A stretch of DNA of 64,000 bases. It comes from Gemmatimonadota bacterium. Its GTDB lineage: Bacteria; JAAXHH01. This document shows, piece after piece, positions 10,093 through 51,613 of the stretch; the first letter of the stretch is position 1; each line of letters begins with the position of its first letter. The stretch spans positions 62,001 to 126,000 of the forward strand of contig JAPPBT010000102.1 in NCBI GenBank assembly GCA_026702745.1. The letters run 5' to 3'. The translations under genes were made by a program, and so were the position numbers. The notes beneath the pieces were generated by a model. It was not told where the DNA came from and searched no databases. It saw nothing but the letters and a program-made list of their open reading frames with translations.

Positions 10093-10121
10093 AATATAGC
10101 CGAGGCGCCCCCCGCAGTCAA
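10093..10121 (-). promoter_or_regulatory. Predicted promoter for the phosphatidyltransferase gene
   Basis: Minus strand TTGACT, 17 bp, TATATT. It sits in the roughly 390-bp divergent intergenic region and predicts a leader of about 130 nt. Confidence 0.6.
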
Positions 10122-39170: not shown

Positions 39171-39198
39171 TTGACAGTCCCACGAAAGGTTTTATTAT
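39171..39198 (+). promoter_or_regulatory. Predicted promoter for the DtxR-type regulator / iron locus
   Basis: TTGACA, 16 bp, TATTAT, preceded by a T-rich stretch. Predicted start near 39205, about 70 nt upstream of the regulator ATG. Confidence 0.68.
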
Positions 39199-39209
39199 TC
39201 GATGGCATA

Positions 39210-39256
39210 TTTGACAAGCCAAACTTTTTATTGCGCTGGCAACACGATGGTTGCCA
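39210..39256 (+). promoter_or_regulatory. Candidate operator region: TTTG-N6-CAAA and a 7-bp inverted repeat
   Basis: Just downstream of the predicted transcription start are TTTGACAAGCCAAA (39210-39223), similar in outline to metal-regulator boxes, and TGGCAAC-N6-GTTGCCA (39237-39256), a perfect inverted repeat. Either could be an autoregulatory site of the DtxR-type protein. The assignment is inference. Confidence 0.45.
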
Positions 39257-39275
39257 TAACGAATCGGACAGTGAG

Positions 39276-39806
39276 ATGGATGTCTGGAGAGAATTCGAGC
39301 ACAACGAGATCACGCACAGTGGCGCGCACTACCTGATGACAGTTCAGCAGTTGATCGAAGAACAGGGATATGCGCGGGTTTCGGACGTGGCCCGGGAGAT
39401 GCATATCACGCCCGGCAGCGCGTCGATCATGATCAAGTCGCTGCGGGAAAAGGGATACCTTGAAGAGGACAGGAACCGGTTTTTGCTGCTGTCGGACGAT
39501 GGAAACCGACTGGCGCAGTCGGTATGGTCACACCGCCAGATCCTTATCGCCTTTCTCAAGGGCGTCCTGCATATCGACGCGGAACAGGCGGAAATCGACG
39601 CGTGCAAGATCGAGCACCTGATCAGCACGAAGACGGGGGAACGGTTGCTGCTCTTCCTGCAGTTCCTTCTGTCGGACGACCCCGACGGCAAGGCGTTCCT
39701 GAAGTCCTACTGGGATGCCAACGTGCTGTCGATCTGCGATTTCGAGTCCTGCGCGGTGTGCGAGGAAGTGGGCGAATGCCTGGTCATCCGATCGGAGTCG
39801 GCGTGA
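39276..39806 (+). CDS. DtxR/MntR-family metal-dependent transcriptional regulator
   Basis: Metal-sensing repressor, here most likely iron-responsive. The 176-residue product has a winged helix (ARVSDVAREMHITPGSASIM, IKSLREKGYL) and the dimerisation/metal domain with WSHRQILIAFL and EIDACKIEHLIS. The Cys-x-x-Glu-His of the latter matches iron-type DtxR, where MntR has Glu in place of Cys. The C-terminus has four cysteines in a C-x4-C-x2-C-x5-C pattern (CDFESCAVCEEVGEC) instead of an SH3/FeoA domain. The ATG fits the helical start EFEHNEITHSGAHYLM. It opens the porin-ApbE-FMN-FeoA-FeoB locus, supporting an iron role. Confidence 0.88.
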   Translation: MDVWREFEHNEITHSGAHYLMTVQQLIEEQGYARVSDVAREMHITPGSASIMIKSLREKGYLEEDRNRFLLLSDDGNRLAQSVWSHRQILIAFLKGVLHIDAEQAEIDACKIEHLISTKTGERLLLFLQFLLSDDPDGKAFLKSYWDANVLSICDFESCAVCEEVGECLVIRSESA

Positions 39807-39860
39807 GGGAAGTGGAAGCATTCGGTGTCCTGGCGGCGGAACGCGTGCTGCCAGTAAATG

Positions 39861-39906
39861 AAAAGGGACTATCGCGACATGGCCCGGCAAGCCCGGCGAT
39901 AGTCCC
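39861..39906 (+). repeat. Long-stem hairpin element, copy 1 (upstream of porin)
   Basis: GGGACTATCG (39865-39874) pairs with CGATAGTCCC (39897-39906); the 22-nt loop can itself fold (CCGG/CCGG). AAAA precedes it, so on the minus strand it ends in TTTT. The stem sequence recurs in copy 2 before the PepSY gene. ACGTACGCG and a TATAAT-like box (39966-39971) follow, as in copy 2 in outline. Confidence 0.8.
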
Positions 39907-39965
39907 TGGCAGGACTTGTGTTACAGTCCCTGAGGGCGGTACGGACGTACGCGACCCTCTTACTC

Positions 39966-39971
39966 TATAAT
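39966..39971 (+). promoter_or_regulatory. Possible -10 element for the porin operon
   Basis: A perfect TATAAT in the AT-rich tract 53 bp before the porin ATG. No good -35; activation or read-through from the regulator gene is possible. Confidence 0.35.
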
Positions 39972-40023
39972 ATACATTGGCCGCTCGAACGGGTCAATGC
40001 ATAAGTCGAAAGGACTCCATTAG

Positions 40024-41295
40024 ATGTACTGTCGTATACTGATCGCCGTGATCGGCCTGATAATCCTTCCCTACATGGCGTTCGCGCAGGACGACACGAA
40101 GGATGAATCCGAGGAAATCAAGCGGCGTATCGACGCGCTTGCCCAGGAGATTGAACAATTGAGACTGGGCGAAGCGCTGGTGGAGGCCGATCAGATGCGC
40201 TTCGGCTTCGGACCTGCTGCATCAAAGATCTACCGGACCGAACGCGGCGTGTCCATCGGCGGTTACGGCGAGGCTGTGTATTTCAATTACGCCGGCGAAA
40301 AAGACGACGGCTCGAGCGGCAAGGCGGACGTGACCGACCTGTTGCGCGCCATCGTGTACGTCGGATACAAATTCAACAGCAATTGGCTCCTCAACACCGA
40401 ATTCGAATTCGAACACGGCTCGACGGGCGTGGGCGGCAGCGTCTCAGCCGAGTTCATCCACCTGGAATATACCCACAGTCCCGCCTTCAACATGCGCTTC
40501 GGCCTGTTGCTCGTTCCCATGGGACTGGTCAACGAACTGCACGAACCGACGGTCTACATGGGCGCGAACCGGCCGGACGTCGAGAAATCCATCATACCCA
40601 GTACGTGGCGGGAAAACGGGATGGGTATCTACGGCGACACGGGCAAATTCTCCTACAGGGCCTACATCGTCAACGGGCTCAGAGGCTCCAAGTTCTCGTC
40701 GGGTGGCCTGCGCGGCGGCCGGCAGAAAGGCGGCAGAGCGGTAAGCGACCATTTCGCGCTGGTTGGACGGGTGGACGTCACGCCGCAGCCCGGATTCCTC
40801 TTCGGCGGGTCATTCTACTATGGCAACTCGGGCCAGGATCTGGCACGGGAAAATACCAACGTCAAGGTCCCGACGGGCATCTACGAAGGCCATGTCGACA
40901 TTCGCCATTCGGGACTGTGGCTGAGCGCCCTCGCCGCCTACGCGAAACTGGGTGACGTGGCGGCGTTGAACGATGCACTCGGCTATACCGATAACGGTTC
41001 CGTGGGTGAATCGTTGAATGGATTCTACGTCCAGGCCGGATACGACCTGTTGCACCGCTCCAGCTACGTCGGCCAGTCCTTCATGCCGTACCTGCGATAC
41101 GAGCGCGTGAACACGCAGACCTCCGTGCCTTCGGGTTACGCATCAAACCCGGTAAACGACAAGGGCAGCATAACGTTTGGCGCCGCCTATCAGCCCGAAC
41201 CCAGGATCGTGTTCAAGGTAGATTACAAGAACAACACCAACGAAGCGGACTCGGGACTCGATCAGTTCAACTTACAGGTCGGATACGTCTTCTAG
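40024..41295 (+). CDS. Outer-membrane porin-like beta-barrel protein
   Basis: A 423-residue exported protein: signal peptide (ILIAVIGLIILPYMAFAQ), a short helical/coiled segment at about 28-55 (EEIKRRIDALAQEIEQLRLG), then repeated amphipathic strands (GYGEAVYFNYAG, AEFIHLEYTHSPAFNMRFGL) and a C-terminal strand ending NLQVGYVF with a terminal Phe. This fits a phosphate/anion-selective-type porin. The ligand is unknown. It sits three bases ahead of the ApbE gene, so it is probably part of the iron operon and may admit iron complexes. Confidence 0.82.
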   Translation: MYCRILIAVIGLIILPYMAFAQDDTKDESEEIKRRIDALAQEIEQLRLGEALVEADQMRFGFGPAASKIYRTERGVSIGGYGEAVYFNYAGEKDDGSSGKADVTDLLRAIVYVGYKFNSNWLLNTEFEFEHGSTGVGGSVSAEFIHLEYTHSPAFNMRFGLLLVPMGLVNELHEPTVYMGANRPDVEKSIIPSTWRENGMGIYGDTGKFSYRAYIVNGLRGSKFSSGGLRGGRQKGGRAVSDHFALVGRVDVTPQPGFLFGGSFYYGNSGQDLARENTNVKVPTGIYEGHVDIRHSGLWLSALAAYAKLGDVAALNDALGYTDNGSVGESLNGFYVQAGYDLLHRSSYVGQSFMPYLRYERVNTQTSVPSGYASNPVNDKGSITFGAAYQPEPRIVFKVDYKNNTNEADSGLDQFNLQVGYVF

Positions 41296-41298
41296 CTC

Positions 41299-42309
41299 AT
41301 GATCATCAGCCTGTTACTCATACCCTGGTTAACCCTGCTGCCCGAAGACCGGCCGGACCCCGTGCGCATCGAGCGTCATCTGACCCTGATGGGTACTACG
41401 CTGGTGATCTCGGTCGAAGCTCGGGATCGGGCCACGGCCCTTGATGCGAGCGAAAAAGCGCTGGCGGTGCTGCATCAGGCGGAGCGGAGACTGTCGACCT
41501 GGACGAACGATTCCGAACTGTCTCGATTGAACGAAGCCGAGGTGGGGCGGACGGTGAGCCTGTCCCCCGAACTGGCTGCGGATCTGACCGAAGCCCGGCG
41601 GTGGTGGATCGCGACCGGCGGTGCTTTCGATCCCGGGATCGGGAAGCTCACGGAGATATGGGGCCTGCGGAGCGGCGGGAAGAAACCTACCCGCGCGCTG
41701 CTCGACCGGACGGCGGACTTGCCGGGGTTGGAGGCGCTGGAAATGGACGGGCCTACCGCCGCTCGGCGGCATGCCGACTTGCGCATTGACGAAGGTGGAT
41801 TCGGTAAAGGCGCCGGCCTGGACGACGCCGTACGAAAACTGAAGGAGACGGATGCGACGGTCGCCATGATCAACCTGGGCGGACAGGTAGCCCTTTTCGG
41901 TTCCGGCGAATCCGTTCGTTTCGAGGTGGCGGATCCTTCGGACCGTCAACGCGTCGCCCTGACACTGACCATCGACCGGGGAGCACTGGCCACATCGGGG
42001 AACAGCGAGAGAGGTCTCGTGATCGGCGATCGGACCTATAGCCATATCCTTGACCCGAACAGCGGGATGCCCGTGCCGGATTTCGGTTCGCTGACCGTGT
42101 GGGCCGATGACGCCTTAGCGGCGGACTGCCTTTCGACCGGCCTTTACGTGCTCGGACCGGAGAAAGCCCTGGACTGGGCGGCGGAATACACAGGGATTGA
42201 AGTACTCGTCCTGGAATCTACAGATGATGGTCTGAACGCCCGCGCGACAACCGGATTCAGGGGCCGAATCGATTCAGGAGGATCGGATGTCGTCCTGTCC
42301 TTCCGCTAA
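41299..42309 (+). CDS. apbE: FAD:protein FMN transferase ApbE
   Basis: Transfers FMN from FAD to a Thr/Ser of periplasmic flavoproteins. The 336-residue product has an N-terminal hydrophobic segment (MIISLLLIPWLTLLPED) and the ApbE core: LMGTTLVISVEA, ERRLSTWTNDSELSRLNEA, GAFDPGIGKLTEIWG, GGFGKGAGLDDAV, MINLGGQVALFG, ALATSGNSERG and YSHILDPNSGMPV. It starts 3 bp after the porin stop and its end overlaps the start of the FMN-binding protein gene, its likely substrate. Confidence 0.95.
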   Translation: MIISLLLIPWLTLLPEDRPDPVRIERHLTLMGTTLVISVEARDRATALDASEKALAVLHQAERRLSTWTNDSELSRLNEAEVGRTVSLSPELAADLTEARRWWIATGGAFDPGIGKLTEIWGLRSGGKKPTRALLDRTADLPGLEALEMDGPTAARRHADLRIDEGGFGKGAGLDDAVRKLKETDATVAMINLGGQVALFGSGESVRFEVADPSDRQRVALTLTIDRGALATSGNSERGLVIGDRTYSHILDPNSGMPVPDFGSLTVWADDALAADCLSTGLYVLGPEKALDWAAEYTGIEVLVLESTDDGLNARATTGFRGRIDSGGSDVVLSFR

Positions 42310-42886
42310 TTGCGAATCGTCACGGCCGGACTTGCAGTCGGCATTTCGGTTCGGCTCATGGTTGCTTGCGGCTGTAGCACTGATAGCGATACCGGCCACT
42401 GCGTCCGCCAACGTTTATCTTACGGTTGGCGAAGCGCTCGAAATGGCATTCCCGGAATGCGAAATAGAGCGGCGGACGATTTACCTGACGAAGCAGCAGA
42501 CAACCGATGCCGGCGGAATGGCACGGGTGGAACTGAACAGTGCAATCATTTACCCCTACGTGGCGTTGAAGGAAGGCCGTATCGCCGGTGTCGCGTATTT
42601 CGACAATCATATCGTGCGGACACTGGATGAGACGATTATGGTGGCCATTGATCCGGACGACAGGGTGCATCGCGTGGAACTGCTGGTGTTCAATGAACCG
42701 CCCGAGTACATACCGCCGGATGCCTGGTATCGTTTGTTCCCGGGTCAGCGATTGGACGACCACCTCGCCGTGAACCGGGGAATACGCGGCATACTGGGTG
42801 CAACCTTAACGACGCGCAGCACCACCGACGCGGTACGGCGCATGCTGGCGATTCATCATGTTATCAAGGATCAACTGGAACGTTGA
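42287..42886 (+). CDS. Exported FMN-binding-domain protein (ApbE substrate)
   Basis: Predicted extracytosolic electron carrier with covalently bound FMN. The 199-residue product has a signal/anchor (SWLLAAVALIAIPATASA), then a compact FMN-binding domain (ALKEGRIAGVAYFDNHIVRT, IAIDPDD-type strand) ending in ILGATLTTRSTTDAVRRML. GATLT is the flavinylation motif, with Thr175 the expected acceptor; the residue before Gly is Leu rather than the usual Ser/Thr. It overlaps apbE by 23 nt and the cytochrome-like gene by 4 nt (TTGA), so the three are translationally coupled. Confidence 0.88.
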   Translation: MSSCPSANCESSRPDLQSAFRFGSWLLAAVALIAIPATASANVYLTVGEALEMAFPECEIERRTIYLTKQQTTDAGGMARVELNSAIIYPYVALKEGRIAGVAYFDNHIVRTLDETIMVAIDPDDRVHRVELLVFNEPPEYIPPDAWYRLFPGQRLDDHLAVNRGIRGILGATLTTRSTTDAVRRMLAIHHVIKDQLER

Positions 42887-43377
42887 ACAGAATCGAAGCC
42901 TGGTTCGTGCATATCTCGACGATCCTCGTCGGGGTCACCGGGGTGATTTATGCCGTCATGCGGTACCTGATGGAACCCGTGGATACATATTCCGTGGTCA
43001 GCCACCCGTGGCAGCCCGGCGTACAATATCTCCATATCGTGGTCGCCCCGTTCGCGGTGTTCGCCATCGGGCTGATCTGGAAAAACCATATCTACGACCA
43101 CTATCGACGCAGACTGACGACCGGACGGCGCAGTGGAATAAGTCTGATACTGACCATGGCGCCAATGGTCGTATCCGGATACCTGATACAGGTGTCGGTC
43201 GGCGAATCCTGGCGCATCGTCTGGATCGTCGTCCATTGCATTACGTCATTCCTATGGATAACCGGTTACCTTGTACACCAGGTGACCCATCTTCGTAAAA
43301 AGGGGACACTGCCTATTCGAAAAACACCTTTCAGTTCCGTAGCAAGTACCAGCATAGGACCCTCTGACACGAGATAA
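42883..43377 (+). CDS. Four-helix cytochrome b-like membrane protein
   Basis: A 164-residue integral membrane protein with four predicted helices (about 5-29, 46-66, 86-106, 110-135). Histidines sit in or near helices at 10, 51, 118 and 132, suggesting two b haems, with further histidines at membrane edges (41, 69, 73, 136). It would pass electrons from the quinone pool to the FMN-binding partner. It resembles small cytochromes found with flavinylated domains; I could not assign a named family. The start is TTG overlapping the previous stop; feoA starts 3 bp after. Confidence 0.7.
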   Translation: MNRIEAWFVHISTILVGVTGVIYAVMRYLMEPVDTYSVVSHPWQPGVQYLHIVVAPFAVFAIGLIWKNHIYDHYRRRLTTGRRSGISLILTMAPMVVSGYLIQVSVGESWRIVWIVVHCITSFLWITGYLVHQVTHLRKKGTLPIRKTPFSSVASTSIGPSDTR

Positions 43378-43380
43378 CCC

Positions 43381-43644
43381 ATGCACTCTGAACTCTTTAC
43401 CAATACAACGGCGCAAACGATTCGCCTGGATGAACTGAAGCCCGGTGAAAAAGGAACGATCCGACAGATCAAGGGTACGGCGGGGGAAGAAGTTCACCTG
43501 ATGGAACTGGGGCTGCTTCCCGGCACAACCGTCGAACTGATCAAACGTGCACCCATGGGCGACCCGATCGAGATTCGCGTACGGAGCTACCACCTGTCTA
43601 TTCGTTGCTCGGAAGCCCGTTCGGTCATGGTGGAAAGAGGCTGA
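43381..43644 (+). CDS. feoA: Ferrous iron transport protein FeoA
   Basis: Small SH3-like cytoplasmic partner of FeoB. The 87-residue product shows LDELKPGEKGTIRQIKG, HLMELGLLPGTTVELIKRAP and DPIEIRVRSYHLSIRCSEAR, the standard FeoA pattern. It follows the cytochrome-like gene by 3 bp, tying the flavin redox genes to ferrous iron uptake. feoB itself lies 1.9 kb downstream, beyond the PepSY gene. Confidence 0.94.
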   Translation: MHSELFTNTTAQTIRLDELKPGEKGTIRQIKGTAGEEVHLMELGLLPGTTVELIKRAPMGDPIEIRVRSYHLSIRCSEARSVMVERG

Positions 43645-43656
43645 ACTGAAGGTTAC

Positions 43657-43703
43657 AAAAAAAGGACTATCGGTTCGGCTGGCCAGCTCTCCCCGATAGT
43701 CCC
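43657..43703 (+). repeat. Long-stem hairpin element, copy 2 (upstream of PepSY gene)
   Basis: GGACTATCGG (43664-43673) pairs with CCGATAGTCC (43693-43702), loop 19 nt with its own GGCTGGCC self-pairing. Seven A residues precede it, so on the minus strand it looks like an intrinsic terminator (TTTTTTT tail). CCTGG directly follows the stem in both copies, then ACGTACGCG (43718-43726). Confidence 0.8.
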
Positions 43704-43816
43704 TGGACCAGGGGGATACGTACGCGTTTAGGGTACAATCCGATCCCGGCCTGTATTATTGAATATATGCCCCCTGGTGCTCGGTGTCAAATTCATCGGA
43801 TCACTGTGGGGCTTAC

Positions 43817-45022
43817 ATGTTTCGCAAAACCATTTTCTGGATCCATCTCTCCTCGGGTGTCGTCGCCGGCGTGGTCATTCTGATCATGTCCGTCACCGGC
43901 GTGCTGCTCACCTTCCAAAGCCAGATCGTCGACTTCGCCAACCGGGATTACTCCACGGTCCGCCCACCCCATTCGGGCGCGGAGCGCATGGATCTCGATG
44001 CGGTGCTGTCGGCGGTCCGGAACGTCGAAACCGTAACGGAACCCACCTCCGTCACCATCCGTCCCGATCCGGACGAGGCGTACGTCGTGCGATTCGGCCG
44101 AGCGAAAACCGTCTTCGTCGATCCTTATAACGGGGAGGTCCGGGGCGAAGGAAACATCGCCGTCCGCGATTTCCTGCGCGAGATTGTGTACTGGCACCGC
44201 TGGTTCGCCGCGGAGGACGAGAACAGGGCAGTCGCCCGCGCGGTTACGGGCGCCTGCAACCTGGCGTTCTTCTTCCTGACCATCACGGGACTTTACATCT
44301 GGTGGCCCCGCAGGTGGACCTTCGCTGCTTTTAAGGCGGTCTTCCTTCCAAACTTCAAAGTCAAGGGAAAGACCAGGGATTTCAACTGGCACAATTCCTT
44401 CGGCATCTGGTGCCTTCCCGCCCTCTTCCTGATCTCACTGAGCGGCGTGGTCATATCCTATCGTTGGGCCGGCAACCTGGTCTACACGCTCACGGGAACG
44501 GAACCCCCGCAACGGACTTCACAGGCCGCCGCGGAACCGGAATACCCGGAGGAGGAATCCGCGCCGTCCCCTTTCGCGCCGTCCGAGTCCTTTCTGGATG
44601 CGGCGCGGAAGCAGGTTCCAGAATGGGCGTACATCACCCTGAACCTGCAGAAAGAAGGCGCGGTAACCACCACACTGACCGTATCTGAAATGGACAATCG
44701 CATTCCGCTGACCCGATCGACCCTTACCGTATCTACGAGCGATGCGGAATTAGTCGAATGGGTACCCTTCACCAGCCTGAACATGGGACGGCAGATCCGC
44801 ACATGGCTGCGCTGGATTCATACGGGCGAAGCGGCCGGTTGGTTCGGCCAGCTCATCGCAGGCGTGGCGTCGGCCGGCGCCGTGGTCCTGGTCTGGACGG
44901 GGCTTTCGCTGGCATGGCGGCGATTACGAAGGTTCAACAGAACCCGGCAAGACAGGGCATACACTACGAAGGATATACCAGGAGAATCCGATGAAGAACC
45001 ACACTTTGCTCGCACAGGATGA
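43817..45022 (+). CDS. PepSY-associated transmembrane protein (putative ferric reductase)
   Basis: Inner-membrane protein of the PepSY_TM/PiuB type, 401 residues. It opens FRKTIFWIHLSSGVVAGVVI, and further membrane helices carry conserved histidines: VYWHRWFA, FNWHNSFGIW and LRWIHTGEAAG. PepSY-like extracytosolic regions lie between helices 1-2 and 3-4. Members reduce siderophore-bound or free ferric iron or carry electrons across the membrane. GGGG lies 7 nt before the ATG. The end overlaps the next small gene by 32 nt. Placement between feoA and feoB supports an iron role. Confidence 0.87.
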   Translation: MFRKTIFWIHLSSGVVAGVVILIMSVTGVLLTFQSQIVDFANRDYSTVRPPHSGAERMDLDAVLSAVRNVETVTEPTSVTIRPDPDEAYVVRFGRAKTVFVDPYNGEVRGEGNIAVRDFLREIVYWHRWFAAEDENRAVARAVTGACNLAFFFLTITGLYIWWPRRWTFAAFKAVFLPNFKVKGKTRDFNWHNSFGIWCLPALFLISLSGVVISYRWAGNLVYTLTGTEPPQRTSQAAAEPEYPEEESAPSPFAPSESFLDAARKQVPEWAYITLNLQKEGAVTTTLTVSEMDNRIPLTRSTLTVSTSDAELVEWVPFTSLNMGRQIRTWLRWIHTGEAAGWFGQLIAGVASAGAVVLVWTGLSLAWRRLRRFNRTRQDRAYTTKDIPGESDEEPHFARTG

Positions 45023-45389
45023 AGAGAACCTGACCCGGGTTTACCGATGCCACTCCGGTCATATACATGTCATCTATCGGCGCATCAACATCGCCCTGTC
45101 GACGGGCGAGTTCCGCGAACTCCTGGACTGCGTCGTACAGACCTTCGAGTACATTCAGAAACAAAGCCCGGAGAGCATGGCATCGAAACACATCGACGTG
45201 ACGTTCGACGACACTGTCGTTAAAATGCCCCTGCCCGCCTTCAGCATGTTCGTGCATGTCCTCAGACGGGCTATGACAAGTTTTCAGCGACTTTTTTCCG
45301 ACAATCCCGAACAACCGGTCGAATCAGGGCAGCAACGCACGGCCAAGCTCATCCCCTTTGCACCGTGCAGATACAGCCACCTGAATTGA
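44991..45389 (+). CDS. Small conserved-looking hypothetical protein in the feo locus
   Basis: A 132-residue soluble protein. The N-terminal half has a pattern RVYRCHSGHIHVIYRRINIA, then LSTGEFRELLDCVVQTFEYI, reminiscent of small FCB-group proteins found near iron genes (DUF6686-like), with Cys and His close together. The middle strand KHIDVTFDDTVVKMPL is followed by an amphipathic helix. I do not know its function; a metal-handling or regulatory role is possible from context. It overlaps the PepSY gene end and is probably translationally coupled. Confidence 0.65.
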   Translation: MKNHTLLAQDEENLTRVYRCHSGHIHVIYRRINIALSTGEFRELLDCVVQTFEYIQKQSPESMASKHIDVTFDDTVVKMPLPAFSMFVHVLRRAMTSFQRLFSDNPEQPVESGQQRTAKLIPFAPCRYSHLN

Positions 45390-45391
45390 GC

Positions 45392-45436
45392 GGCCAGGCG
45401 GGGCAAGGCCAGACGGGGCAAGGCCAGGCGGGGCAA
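45392..45436 (+). repeat. 15-bp tandem repeat x3 upstream of feoB
   Basis: Units GGCCAGGCGGGGCAA, GGCCAGACGGGGCAA, GGCCAGGCGGGGCAA back to back in the intergenic spacer. Confidence 0.92.
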
Positions 45437-45513
45437 GGTATGGTCAGCCCGGACATCCCATGCGCTTCGCTTTTTATTCCCTTATGTGATGTATTTAGTT
45501 ATATTGTTTCGAT

Positions 45514-45543
45514 CCGGGCTTGACGGTTTTCCGGCCCGGTTTT
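45514..45543 (+). terminator. Possible attenuator hairpin before feoB
   Basis: CCGGGC (45514-45519) can pair with GCCCGG (45534-45539), followed by TTTT. An AT-rich tract with TATATT (45500-45505) lies just upstream and may be the feoB promoter -10. Confidence 0.35.
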
Positions 45544-45576
45544 GATCCCGATCCCATTCAAGAATCAACCGGTGAC

Positions 45577-47787
45577 ATGGCCGAAACAACCAATACATAC
45601 ACGGCACGGGAATCCGTGTACGATGTACTCCTCGTCGGCAACCCGAATACCGGCAAGACGTCCGTATTCAATTCGTTGACCGGGCTCCGTCAGAAAACGG
45701 GCAACTATCCCGGCGTGACCGTGGAGAAGAAAACGGGCACCGTGACGGGTCCGGACGGCGGCACGCTTCGCCTGCACGACATGCCGGGGATGTACAGCCT
45801 TACCCCGAAGTCCCTCGACGACTCCATCGCCCGGGAGGTGCTGATCGGGGAGGCGGACGAGGAGCTGGACATCCGCCTCATCGTGGTCGTGGCGGACGCT
45901 TCGAACCTCAACCGGAACCTCTACCTGGTCACCCAGCTCATCGACCTCGGCATCCCCGTCGCCGTGGCCATGAACATGATGGACAACGCCGTCAGCAGCG
46001 GCATCCACATCGACCTGGACGCGCTTTCCGAACAACTGCAGGTCCCGATCGTTCCCGTGGTCGCTTCCCGCCAACAGGGCATAGACGAACTGAGACGGAT
46101 GATGTTCGACCAGATCGGTCCGGTGGATCGGGATGCACGGACGGACGGTTCGACGGAGTCAGCCAGGGACGCGGTTTCCTTCGCCGAACGGTTTCCGCGG
46201 AGGCGGCTGCTGGGTGGTTTGCTCGACGAAGCGCTCGCCCCTGCGGCGGCGTGGTTCGGAGAACATACGAATCTGAACGAGGTGGCGCAGGCGTCGGAAG
46301 CGCTGCGCGTGACCTCGAGCGACCAGGCGCTGCAGACGTGGATGGAAGGCCGCCAGGATCCCTCTTGCAAGGAAGACCTGAAACGCATCGTGGAGCAGAC
46401 GCGGGGCAGGCTGGACGAAATGCAGGTCCCGTGGCGCATGCTGGAGACCATCCTGCGGTATGACCAGATCGACGATCTCTATTCCAGGGTCGTGCGGGAG
46501 GATCGGGATGTCCAGGACAGCCTGAGTGTCCGGCTGGACCGCGCTTTCACCCACCGGATTGCCGGTCCGGTCATCGTCCTGGCCGTGTTCGCGCTGGTCT
46601 TCCAGTCCATATTTTCCTGGGCCGAAGCGCCCATGACGCTTATCGAGGACGGGATCGCCGCCCTGGGTGCCTTCGTCTACCAGTTTCTGCCCGCCGGCAT
46701 GCTGCGGGACCTGCTCGTGGATGGCGTCATCGCCGGCGTGGGCGCCGTGCTGGTCTTCCTCCCCCAGATCCTCTTCCTCTTCTTCTTCCTGGCGCTGCTC
46801 GAAGACACGGGCTACATGGCCCGCGTCGCCTTCATTATGGACCGGTTCATGAAGAGCATGGGCCTGTCCGGCCACTCGGTCATGCCGCTGCTTTCGTCAT
46901 TTGCCTGTGCGATTCCCGGCATCATGGCGACCCGTACGATCAAGAACTGGAAAGACCGCCTCATCACCATCATGATCGCGCCGTTGATGAGCTGCAGCGC
47001 CCGTCTGCCTGTTTACATCCTGCTGATCGGCGCGTTCTTTCCGTCCATGACGATTCTGGGCGTGTTCACGCTGCAGGGGCTCATGCTGTTTTCCATGTAC
47101 ATATTCGGGATCGTCGTCGCCATCGGCGCCGCACTGGTCTTCAAGCGGTTATTCATGAAGGACGCCGTTCCCACGAGTTTCGTCATGGAACTGCCGCCCT
47201 ACCGGCGTCCGTCCCTGAAGTGGGTGCTCCTGCAGATGTACGAACGGGCGAAGGTCTTCGTTACAGAAGCGGGCCAGATCATCCTTGCCATATCGGTCGT
47301 CCTCTGGTTTCTCGCCTCGTACCCGCAGCCCGACGACTATGAAGCCATGTCGTCTCGATCGCGCATACAGCAGAGCTACGCCGGACAGCTCGGCCAGTTG
47401 ATCGAACCGGCCATCGAGCCGCTCGGGTTCGACTGGAAGGTGGGCATCGGCCTGATCACCTCCTTCGTCGCCCGGGAAGTGCTGGTGAGCACCATGGCCA
47501 CGATCTACAATGTGGAGGAGGCCGACGAGACCTCGGTAGATCTCCGGTCATCGCTTCAGGACGATGTGGACCCGGAGACGGGCGAGCGGTTGTATACGCC
47601 ACTGGTGGCGGTCGCGCTCATGGTCTTCTTCGCCCTGGCTTGCCAGTGCATGGCCACGGTCGCCATAGTGAAGCGGGAGACCAACGGCTGGAAATGGCCC
47701 ATCGTCATGGTCCTGTACATGACGGCCCTGGCCTATGTGGGATCCTTCGTCGTTTACCAGGGGGGACGGCTCCTGGGATTCGGATAA
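45577..47787 (+). CDS. feoB: Ferrous iron transporter FeoB
   Basis: Inner-membrane Fe(II) permease with an N-terminal G domain. The 736-residue product has G1 GNPNTGKTS (21-29), the G2/switch region KTGNYPGVTVEKKTG, G3 HDMPGMYSL, G4 NMMD, a helical linker, then about eight to ten membrane helices including the gate motif SFACAIPGIMATR and ISVVLWFLASYPQP. The ATG giving MAETTNTYTARESVYD is preferred to an upstream TTG. Feo core with accessory reductase genes upstream and a FeoB-associated peptide downstream. Confidence 0.97.
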   Translation: MAETTNTYTARESVYDVLLVGNPNTGKTSVFNSLTGLRQKTGNYPGVTVEKKTGTVTGPDGGTLRLHDMPGMYSLTPKSLDDSIAREVLIGEADEELDIRLIVVVADASNLNRNLYLVTQLIDLGIPVAVAMNMMDNAVSSGIHIDLDALSEQLQVPIVPVVASRQQGIDELRRMMFDQIGPVDRDARTDGSTESARDAVSFAERFPRRRLLGGLLDEALAPAAAWFGEHTNLNEVAQASEALRVTSSDQALQTWMEGRQDPSCKEDLKRIVEQTRGRLDEMQVPWRMLETILRYDQIDDLYSRVVREDRDVQDSLSVRLDRAFTHRIAGPVIVLAVFALVFQSIFSWAEAPMTLIEDGIAALGAFVYQFLPAGMLRDLLVDGVIAGVGAVLVFLPQILFLFFFLALLEDTGYMARVAFIMDRFMKSMGLSGHSVMPLLSSFACAIPGIMATRTIKNWKDRLITIMIAPLMSCSARLPVYILLIGAFFPSMTILGVFTLQGLMLFSMYIFGIVVAIGAALVFKRLFMKDAVPTSFVMELPPYRRPSLKWVLLQMYERAKVFVTEAGQIILAISVVLWFLASYPQPDDYEAMSSRSRIQQSYAGQLGQLIEPAIEPLGFDWKVGIGLITSFVAREVLVSTMATIYNVEEADETSVDLRSSLQDDVDPETGERLYTPLVAVALMVFFALACQCMATVAIVKRETNGWKWPIVMVLYMTALAYVGSFVVYQGGRLLGFG

Positions 47788-47792
47788 GCGTC

Positions 47793-47887
47793 GTCGGACT
47801 GTCTAGCAGCCGTCGGACCGCCTGGTAGCTGTCGGACCGCCTGGTAGCTGTCGGACCACTTGGCAGCCGCCGGACCGCTTGGCTTTT
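47793..47887 (+). repeat. 19-bp tandem repeat x5 after feoB
   Basis: Five units of consensus GTCGGACCGCCTGGTAGCT starting at 47793, 47812, 47831, 47850 and 47869; the second and third are identical. Same period as the array at 27775 but different sequence. Confidence 0.92.
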
Positions 47888-47913
47888 AACCCGTCCGCCA
47901 TTATCTTGCTATC

Positions 47914-48180
47914 ATGGACCTTCAAACTCTGATCGTCGCCATAGTCGTGGGGGTCGCGGCCGCGTCTGTCTTGCGCACCTTCACCCGGCAGTTCACCTCC
48001 CGGGACCGGAAGGGATGCGGAAGCTGCGCTCACGGCGGCTCGGTGCTGACCGGGCTGACCGGGCTGACCGGACAGACCGGGCAGTCCAGGCTGACCAGCG
48101 CATCGCGGGACGACGAGCTGATCCAGGTGGAGTTGATCCAGGTGAAGCCGATCCAGGTGGATGAGTCCGTCCGGGAATAG
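47914..48180 (+). CDS. FeoB-associated Cys-rich small membrane protein
   Basis: An 88-residue single-span protein: helix LQTLIVAIVVGVAAASVLR, then the motif RKGCGSCAHGGS typical of the FeoB_associated family that follows feoB in many bacteria. Its role in Feo is not settled; the cysteines may handle Fe(II) or a cluster. The C-terminal half is not family-like: it is made of Leu-Thr-Gly repeats (9-bp units) and Ile-Gln-Val repeats (15-bp units), so the true functional peptide may be only the first 43 residues. No clear Shine-Dalgarno. Confidence 0.75.
   Translation: MDLQTLIVAIVVGVAAASVLRTFTRQFTSRDRKGCGSCAHGGSVLTGLTGLTGQTGQSRLTSASRDDELIQVELIQVKPIQVDESVRE
48046..48162 (+). repeat. 9-bp and 15-bp tandem repeats in the FeoB-associated gene
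   Basis: Six 9-bp units like CTGACCGGG (48046-48099) and three 15-bp units like CTGATCCAGGTGGAG (48118-48162), all in frame. Confidence 0.9.
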
Positions 48181-51070: not shown

Positions 51071-51613
51071 TTGAATATCGAGATCGAGACCGTCCTGCCC
51101 GCGCCGGACATCCCGCGCGAGGCGCTATGGACCGCAGTCTGCCGGGTACTCCGGGGCGAAGGCCGGGACCATGCGGCCGTGACCGTGGTGCTGGTCGATG
51201 ACCCCTATATCCGGAAGTTGAATCACAAGTACCGCCATCTGGATCGCGCGACGGACGTGCTGTCGTTCGGAATGGAAGACGATCCCGGATCCGAAGGGGA
51301 AATCCTGGGCGACGTATACGTATCCGTCGACCGGGCCCGGGATCAGGCCGCCCGTCATCACGTGTCCATGGACGACGAGTTGCACCGGCTCGTGGTCCAT
51401 GGGTGCCTGCACCTGCTGGGATATGACCACCACACCGCTTCACAGCGCAAAGTGATGCGGGAAAAGGAACAGGTCTATTCGGCGAATGCGGCAGGCCAGA
51501 TCGACCAGGCCGACGTGACCGCACGGGCTGACCAGGCTGGCCAGGCTGACCAGGCTGGCCAGGCTGACCACGGGATTCCGGAAGGTAAAGTGGGAGAAAA
51601 AAGTTTTGGATGA
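51071..51613 (+). CDS. ybeY: Endoribonuclease YbeY
   Basis: Zinc-dependent RNase for 16S rRNA 3'-end maturation and ribosome quality control. LNHKYRHLDRATDVLSFGME and the zinc motif HGCLHLLGYDHH (His-x3-His-x5-His) are present. The TTG start is used because the conserved protein begins directly after it. The family is usually about 150 residues; the extra 35 or so C-terminal residues (Asp-Gln-Ala-Gly-Gln-Ala type) are encoded by 9-bp repeats. The end overlaps the CorC-type gene by 8 nt. Confidence 0.94.
   Translation: MNIEIETVLPAPDIPREALWTAVCRVLRGEGRDHAAVTVVLVDDPYIRKLNHKYRHLDRATDVLSFGMEDDPGSEGEILGDVYVSVDRARDQAARHHVSMDDELHRLVVHGCLHLLGYDHHTASQRKVMREKEQVYSANAAGQIDQADVTARADQAGQADQAGQADHGIPEGKVGEKSFG
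51530..51570 (+). repeat. 9-bp tandem repeat x4.5 at ybeY 3' end
   Basis: Alternating units GACCAGGCT and GGCCAGGCT, effectively an 18-bp higher-order repeat. Same unit as in grpE and, inverted, tsaE. Confidence 0.92.

Follow-up and report, generated by a model that had tools for sequence, protein, structure and literature searches.

The locus considered in the present study raises the question of how a ferrous-iron importer may be supplied with reduced iron. FeoB imports Fe(II), iron in oxic settings is Fe(III) and, to our knowledge, the electron source for most Feo systems is not known. In a stretch of 64,000 nucleotides from a Gemmatimonadota bacterium (hereafter, the window; contig JAPPBT010000102.1, assembly GCA_026702745.1), feoA and feoB are accompanied by genes for a flavinylation unit, a four-helix membrane protein, and a PepSY membrane protein. 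We consider it probable that these genes constitute a Feo importer with two separable electron-delivery modules, together with candidate small RNA genes on the minus strand. Two different candidate reductases would accordingly stand beside one FeoB, and relatives that are missing one of them represent natural knock-outs.

The ten genes are all located on the plus strand in the order given in the preliminary description of this DNA: a DtxR-type regulator, a porin-like barrel, ApbE, a flavin mononucleotide (FMN)-binding protein, the four-helix protein, FeoA, the PepSY protein, a conserved protein of 132 amino acids (aa) referred to as unk8, FeoB, and a Cys-rich peptide. Module 1 consists of the porin-like outer-membrane barrel (40024-41295, 423 aa, with a signal peptide and a C-terminal Phe, and orthologous in the relatives with the flavin module), ApbE, a flavin adenine dinucleotide:protein FMN transferase (41299-42309; PF02424, 207 bits), the exported RnfG/NqrC-like FMN-binding protein (42287-42886; PF04205), and the four-helix candidate diheme cytochrome b (42883-43377), and is followed by FeoA (43381-43644; PF04023). 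Module 2 consists of a PepSY_TM protein of the FoxB/FsrB/PiuB type (43817-45022; PF03929, 182 bits) and unk8 (44991-45389), which was seen only beside this PepSY type. FeoB (45577-47787; TIGR00437, 525 bits, with FeoB_N, Gate, and FeoB_C) has a reading frame that is open from a TTG at 45520; the start at 45577 is the most likely because alignments within the genus mostly start at residues 14-20. The FeoB-associated Cys-rich membrane peptide (47914-48180) scored 22.8 bits against PF12669, below the cut-off of 27, and is kept beside FeoB in relatives. According to the Pfam and NCBIfam cut-offs used for family assignment, ApbE, FeoA, PepSY_TM, and FeoB are firmly assigned, and the locus has the FeoA and the FeoB with GTPase and Gate domains that define Feo membership. 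The tight spacing previously described for most of the row was found inside porin-apbE-fmn-cytb-feoA (gaps of +3, -23, -4, and +3 bases) and PepSY-unk8, and does not extend to the dtxR-porin, feoA-PepSY, unk8-feoB, and feoB-peptide spacers, which measure approximately 130-220 bases each.

In the mechanism that we propose, ApbE would transfer FMN onto Thr173 of the exported RnfG/NqrC-like protein, and the four-helix cytochrome, with two bis-His hemes, would carry electrons across the inner membrane, probably from quinol, enabling the flavoprotein to reduce periplasmic ferric iron, while the barrel would serve for the entry of the ferric complex. Module 2 would reduce ferric chelates on its own, as a diheme membrane reductase of the FoxB/FsrB type, and Fe(II) from either module would be handed to FeoAB. 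The MntR-like regulator would probably repress the locus in metal-replete cells, and the two paralogous minus-strand small RNAs would probably tune the locus or other iron-related mRNAs.

The separability of the two modules was revealed by a comparison with related genomes; the analysis covered 16 genomes of the source phylum, among which G000 denotes that of the window. The complete order recurs in two close relatives, G010 (on the same contig as L013) and RHO3 (L014), and, thus, is not unique to this genome, which had been named as an outcome that would count against the original idea. Two further genera, one of which belongs to another family (G013 and G014), also have the flavin block together with feoA and feoB, at approximately 50-66% protein identity. 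Wherever contigs extend, the flanks are conserved, with glnE upstream and a nitroreductase gene, two open reading frames, and phoH downstream; therefore, the loci may be regarded as orthologous, and the recurrence of the gene order with these flanks in related genomes is beyond chance. The close relatives are labelled Gemmatimonadota or Latescibacterota and, judging by names only, appear to be sponge-derived metagenome-assembled genomes.

At the orthologous locus, four genomes (G002, G005, G013, and G014) have the flavin block and no PepSY, and seven (G003, G004, G006, G008, G009, G011, and G012) have PepSY and no flavin block. Among the latter, cytb is reduced to its last codons beside feoA in G008, G009, G011, and G012, while G003, G004, and G006 retain an alignable but more worn trace of its 3' end; in G001, which has neither module at the locus, the beginning of the porin gene has been joined to a fragment of cytb. 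Since these remnants stay, the seven relatives and G001 represent losses of porin-apbE-fmn-cytb as a unit. The tree of the flanking genes involves at least four changes for the flavin block and at least three for PepSY, and the feoA sequences disagree with this tree, which suggests exchange by recombination inside the locus.

The flavin block and PepSY-unk8 are separable, and this finding bears directly on the route of electrons. The preliminary description had drawn a single obligatory path to ferric iron, from the quinone pool through cytochrome b and the flavinylated carrier, PepSY being one more carrier. The co-directional arrangement of all the genes in G000, G010, and RHO3 is in line with such a serial chain; however, since each module is found without the other, with the repeated changes noted above, one obligatory chain fits poorly and two parallel reductases fit well. 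We regard the serial chain as very unlikely, and the two modules as probably being parallel ferric reductases that feed one FeoB, such that the idea of a Feo-linked ferric reductase stands in part, without the single chain. A stricter rule, that every genome keeps at least one reductase module, was considered and rejected: it applies to 12/12 same-genus loci, a result that is not significant because it is expected by chance in approximately 15% of cases with fixed counts (hand calculation), and G001 has neither module.

Regarding the flavin block, the earlier description was supported: a flavinylation unit, its ApbE included, is part of a Feo locus that also encodes a regulator of the DtxR family. 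G000 possesses one ApbE and one FMN_bind protein in its whole genome, encoded by adjacent genes, and an RnfG/NqrC-type gene is absent elsewhere; because each is single-copy and adjacent, ApbE has one recognizable client, the RnfG/NqrC-like protein, which makes this a clean flavinylation system. The numbers of ApbE and FMN_bind proteins are equal in 16/16 genomes (0, 1, or 2 each), with the paired genes being within approximately 3 kb. In G001 and G014, a second pair is part of an Nqr operon and an Rnf operon, respectively. Among the seven PepSY-only genomes of the same genus, ApbE is absent in six (G003, G004, G006, G008, G011, and G012), and G009 has a permease-linked pair. This other ApbE and FMN_bind pair, with the motif DGITGAT, adjoins a MacB-like permease of the ATP-binding cassette type and was observed in G005 and G009 (L093 5483-7198 and L094 5787-7529).

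A profile of seven relatives of the FMN-binding protein matched RnfG of Acetobacterium woodii (9eri_G, E 0.0014), with GATLT aligned to the RnfG flavinylation site, and a Foldseek search with a predicted model of moderate quality (predicted local distance difference test score, pLDDT, 64.5) placed RnfG and NqrC at the top (probability 0.95, E 0.019). GATLT is invariant in the seven sequences and occupies residues 171-175. Although Thr175 had been proposed as the FMN site, the Thr at the position flavinylated in RnfG/NqrC is the last residue of GAT (171-173), namely Thr173, the codon of which is 42803-42805. The protein resembles RnfG/NqrC in its FMN_bind fold, GAT motif, and N-terminal signal or anchor, and differs in that an Rnf or Nqr operon is absent here and that its partner is a small cytochrome-like protein.

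This partner, the four-helix protein, has four transmembrane peaks and seven invariant His residues (10, 41, 51, 69, 73, 118, and 132). Hydropathy and the positive-inside rule place H51 and H118 on the periplasmic side and H10, H69, H73, and H132 on the cytoplasmic side, and these two layers make the protein a candidate for a diheme transmembrane cytochrome b. It is similar to the DUF4405/FezC cytochromes (mSystems 2024, PMC11334425), which are small His-rich membrane proteins tied to flavinylation or iron, but has no match to PF14358. Its profile did not match that of PepSY. Ubiquitin matches obtained in the profile searches with the FMN-binding and PepSY proteins were dismissed as chance.

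The PepSY protein contains four His residues (10, 127, 192, and 335) that are invariant in 12 sequences across several phyla, and its profile matched the FoxB structure 7abw_A (E 1.5e-4). Its sequence thus combines PF03929 with two putative heme-His pairs, as expected of a PepSY_TM reductase. A role for PepSY as an electron carrier, which had been suggested, is in agreement with the studied members of the family, which are periplasmic ferric-siderophore reductases; one of these, FsrB (PepSY_TM, FoxB family) of Bradyrhizobium, reduces siderophore iron that is then imported by FeoAB (PMC10760861). The present protein shares with FsrB, FoxB, and HiuB (PMC10760861, PMC12424826; FoxB 7ABW) the family, the four conserved His residues, and, by prediction, the periplasmic reduction of a ferric complex. 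In contrast to them, its gene shares a feo operon with that of a small conserved partner, while the distant relatives inspected outside the phylum are encoded outside Feo loci. The small membrane protein HiuC, with which HiuB cooperates (PMC12424826), is a possible parallel for unk8, though unk8 has no obvious membrane segment. The genome also encodes a second PepSY_TM protein elsewhere, in an open frame of 605 codons (G000:C26:28265-29866, L087).

Considering the acceptor of the electrons, among the closest known systems are PepSY-like and MsrQ-like flavinylation clusters with a VIT1 iron transporter, which have been read as assimilatory iron reductases (eLife 2021, PMC8238504). In these clusters, too, ApbE and an exported flavinylated protein are encoded together with a membrane-bound electron carrier and a transporter of ferrous iron. 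On the other hand, the transporter here is FeoAB, and FeoB is never named in the text of that paper; an RnfG/NqrC-like flavoprotein takes the place of DUF2271, a four-helix protein of no assigned class would be the carrier, and PepSY is separable from the flavin unit. Neither the DUF2271 substrate nor DUF4198, the hallmarks of PepSY flavinylation clusters, gave a Pfam match in any protein of the locus. An alternative is that electrons from the flavin module go to another acceptor or that the module runs in reverse, for example, in the oxidation of Fe(II) or with another metal, and that common regulation alone explains its position among the feo genes. In its favor, PepSY_TM and flavinylated proteins serve several substrates, including copper in the case of one PepSY_TM protein proposed as a copper reductase (PMC13038864). 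However, the block ends 3 bases from feoA (stop to start), a position kept in two families, and the precedent for clusters with ferrous-iron transporters is one of iron reduction (PMC8238504). We consider this alternative to be unlikely, and retain the reduction of ferric iron as the probable function.

In addition to the protein-coding genes, two small-RNA-like genes on the minus strand, which had escaped the preliminary description, were detected in the spacers. Element E1 (39858-39963) is in the dtxR-porin spacer and its paralogue E2 (43655-43756) is in the feoA-PepSY spacer, and both are structured elements of approximately 100 nucleotides (nt) when read on the minus strand. E1 has three hairpins, the last of which, GGGACTATCG...CGATAGTCCC, is followed by TTTT. 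The common hairpin GGGACTATCG-(20-23 nt)-CGATAGTCCC was confined to the feo locus among the genomes searched: the exact pattern occurred in 13 genomes, with one or two copies each and none for the reversed-pattern control, while relaxing one position gave 14 genomes and one control match, in G013. A covariance model built without G013 recovered the copy of this genome at E 0.001, with no further match there. Hairpin P3 stays paired in three genera that differ in its sequence. No Rfam family matched E1 or E2, and near-matches at E 3-6 were attributed to chance.

The promoters of the two elements, TTGACC-17-TATATT for E1 (39969-39997, minus strand) and TTGACA-17-TATATT for E2 (43762-43790, minus strand), were identified by pattern and conservation. 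Across relatives, a minus-strand promoter of the form TTGAC[ACT]-17-TATA[TC]T precedes 21/22 element copies (for most E1 copies, the script listed an overlapping site with a 19-base spacing; the site spaced by 17 bases can be read from the sequence itself). Behind the P1 hairpin, 22/22 copies have a U-tract on the minus strand. The strict pattern TTGAC-N18-TATA[TC]T was found four times in the 64-kb window against 0.01 expected; two of these are the E1 and E2 promoters and a third, which served as an internal control, precedes two neighboring tRNA genes by 41 bases. The fourth is at 10093-10121 on the minus strand near an HrcA-like gene. The minus-strand folds were more stable than those of shuffled sequences (z -2.6 to -6.2).

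By sequence, the elements thus show what is expected of intergenic small RNAs: a promoter, a predicted structured transcript, a terminator made of a hairpin plus a U-tract, and conservation. They may also be read as cis elements on the plus strand, either riboswitch-like leaders or DtxR operators, because each immediately precedes one of the two modules, the plus strand of E1 also folds well, and hairpin P3 of E1 is independently predicted in three genera. However, the conserved minus-strand promoters and U-tracts, the rarity of the promoter pattern, and the clearly better fold of E2 on the minus strand argue against a leader, as does the persistence of E1 and its promoter in G008, G009, and G011 despite the loss of the downstream genes; the variable arm spacing of 20-23 bases is a poor fit to an operator. 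In G005, from which PepSY is gone, E2 has lost its promoter. Small RNA genes appear to be the more likely interpretation, while a cis element is somewhat improbable. PrrF1/PrrF2 and RyhB are iron-control small RNAs, and PrrF is a paralogous pair. E1 and E2 differ from them in being inside a Feo operon on the opposite strand, with DtxR instead of Fur as the local regulator, and in having no sequence relation. If real, they would be iron-linked small RNAs in an uncultured lineage without described ones.

Several observations weigh against the two-module reading with small RNA control. The FMN_bind score is marginal (22.7 bits against a cut-off of 22), and the Asp of the usual motif Dxx(s/t)GAT is Arg in 7/7 module proteins, with Leu, Ala, or Thr at the s/t position, while Nqr, Rnf, and other ApbE-paired proteins keep the Asp as DG[LI][ST]GAT; because of this replacement in all seven, flavinylation is not to be taken for granted. 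The four-helix protein had no relative in Pfam, NCBIfam, or the PDB and no detectable homologue of known function there, and its model was too poor to be used (mean pLDDT 52.5); the porin-like protein and unk8 also matched no Pfam or NCBIfam family. Gene loss speaks to the separability of the modules, and not to the substrate of either. The two strands of E1 fold about equally, and folding alone leaves its strand undecided. With respect to regulation, the closest solved structures to the regulator are those of MntR, a manganese sensor, and no DtxR operator was found by eye in the aligned spacers.

The regulator (39276-39806, 176 aa) contains both the N- and C-terminal DtxR domains over the cut-off (PF01325 and PF02742). 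The locus had been described as beginning at 39171; this position belongs to the -35 box of a promoter-like site, TTGACA-16-TATTAT (39171-39198, plus strand, 11/12 positions), which is kept in same-genus relatives, and the gene itself starts at the conserved ATG at 39276. A palindrome in the dtxR leader (39237-39256), GGCAACACGATGGTTGCC, of the form GGCAAC-N6-GTTGCC, is kept in most of the genus and was not seen at the other promoters, and is a possible autoregulatory operator. The C terminus carries a CX4CX2CX5C cluster (39735-39780) that is conserved except in G001, where it is deleted, and the spacing of which presumably resembles that of the Fe-S protein FeoC.

The similarity to MntR raises the alternative of a manganese locus, in which an MntR-type regulator controls an FeoB that imports Mn(II). 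A precedent is FeoB1 of Porphyromonas gingivalis, which has been described as a manganese transporter, with a DtxR-family regulator in its upregulated cluster (PMC10434189). A second, split FeoB system is also present in 16/16 genomes, and the FeoB counterparts share approximately 30% identity. Nevertheless, FeoA, the FeoB-associated peptide, and a PepSY protein of the siderophore-reductase type are companions typical of iron, and the residue aligned to Glu99 of MntR is Cys, which we take to be the state in DtxR/IdeR. We regard manganese as a highly improbable substrate, and iron remains the metal in our reading. The second system in G000 (G000:C20:90600-94625, L080) encodes two DtxR-family/FeoA-domain proteins and, after them, an FeoB divided between separate genes for the GTPase and the membrane part. 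In G015, which is without the FeoB under study, a distant porin homologue is near the second Feo system, beside Rieske-type and cytochrome c-like proteins (L081 4010-7008).

A bolder formulation is that the Feo operon of this sponge-type lineage contains a new type of ferric reductase, made of an unclassified diheme cytochrome b and a dedicated flavinylated RnfG-like protein, which is exchangeable with a PepSY reductase, and that control is exerted via two minus-strand iron-responsive small RNAs under a DtxR-family regulator with a FeoC-like Cys cluster. We offer this formulation as tentative and rather doubtful as a whole. What would be new are the cytochrome, which belongs to no known class, the exchange of reductase modules beside a single FeoB, and the pair of RNAs, since flavinylation clusters with an iron transporter are already known. 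A full-text literature search found no paper combining FMN-binding, ApbE, and FeoB, which is weak evidence because its coverage was partial.

Short tandem repeats are numerous at gene ends and in spacers (45392-45438, 47792-47883, 48045-48161, 51526-51570, and others), with periods of 9-39, often 9, 15, 18, and 19. Some of these are in coding sequence and give rise to peptide repeats, the FeoB-associated peptide having, for example, LTGLTGQTGQ.

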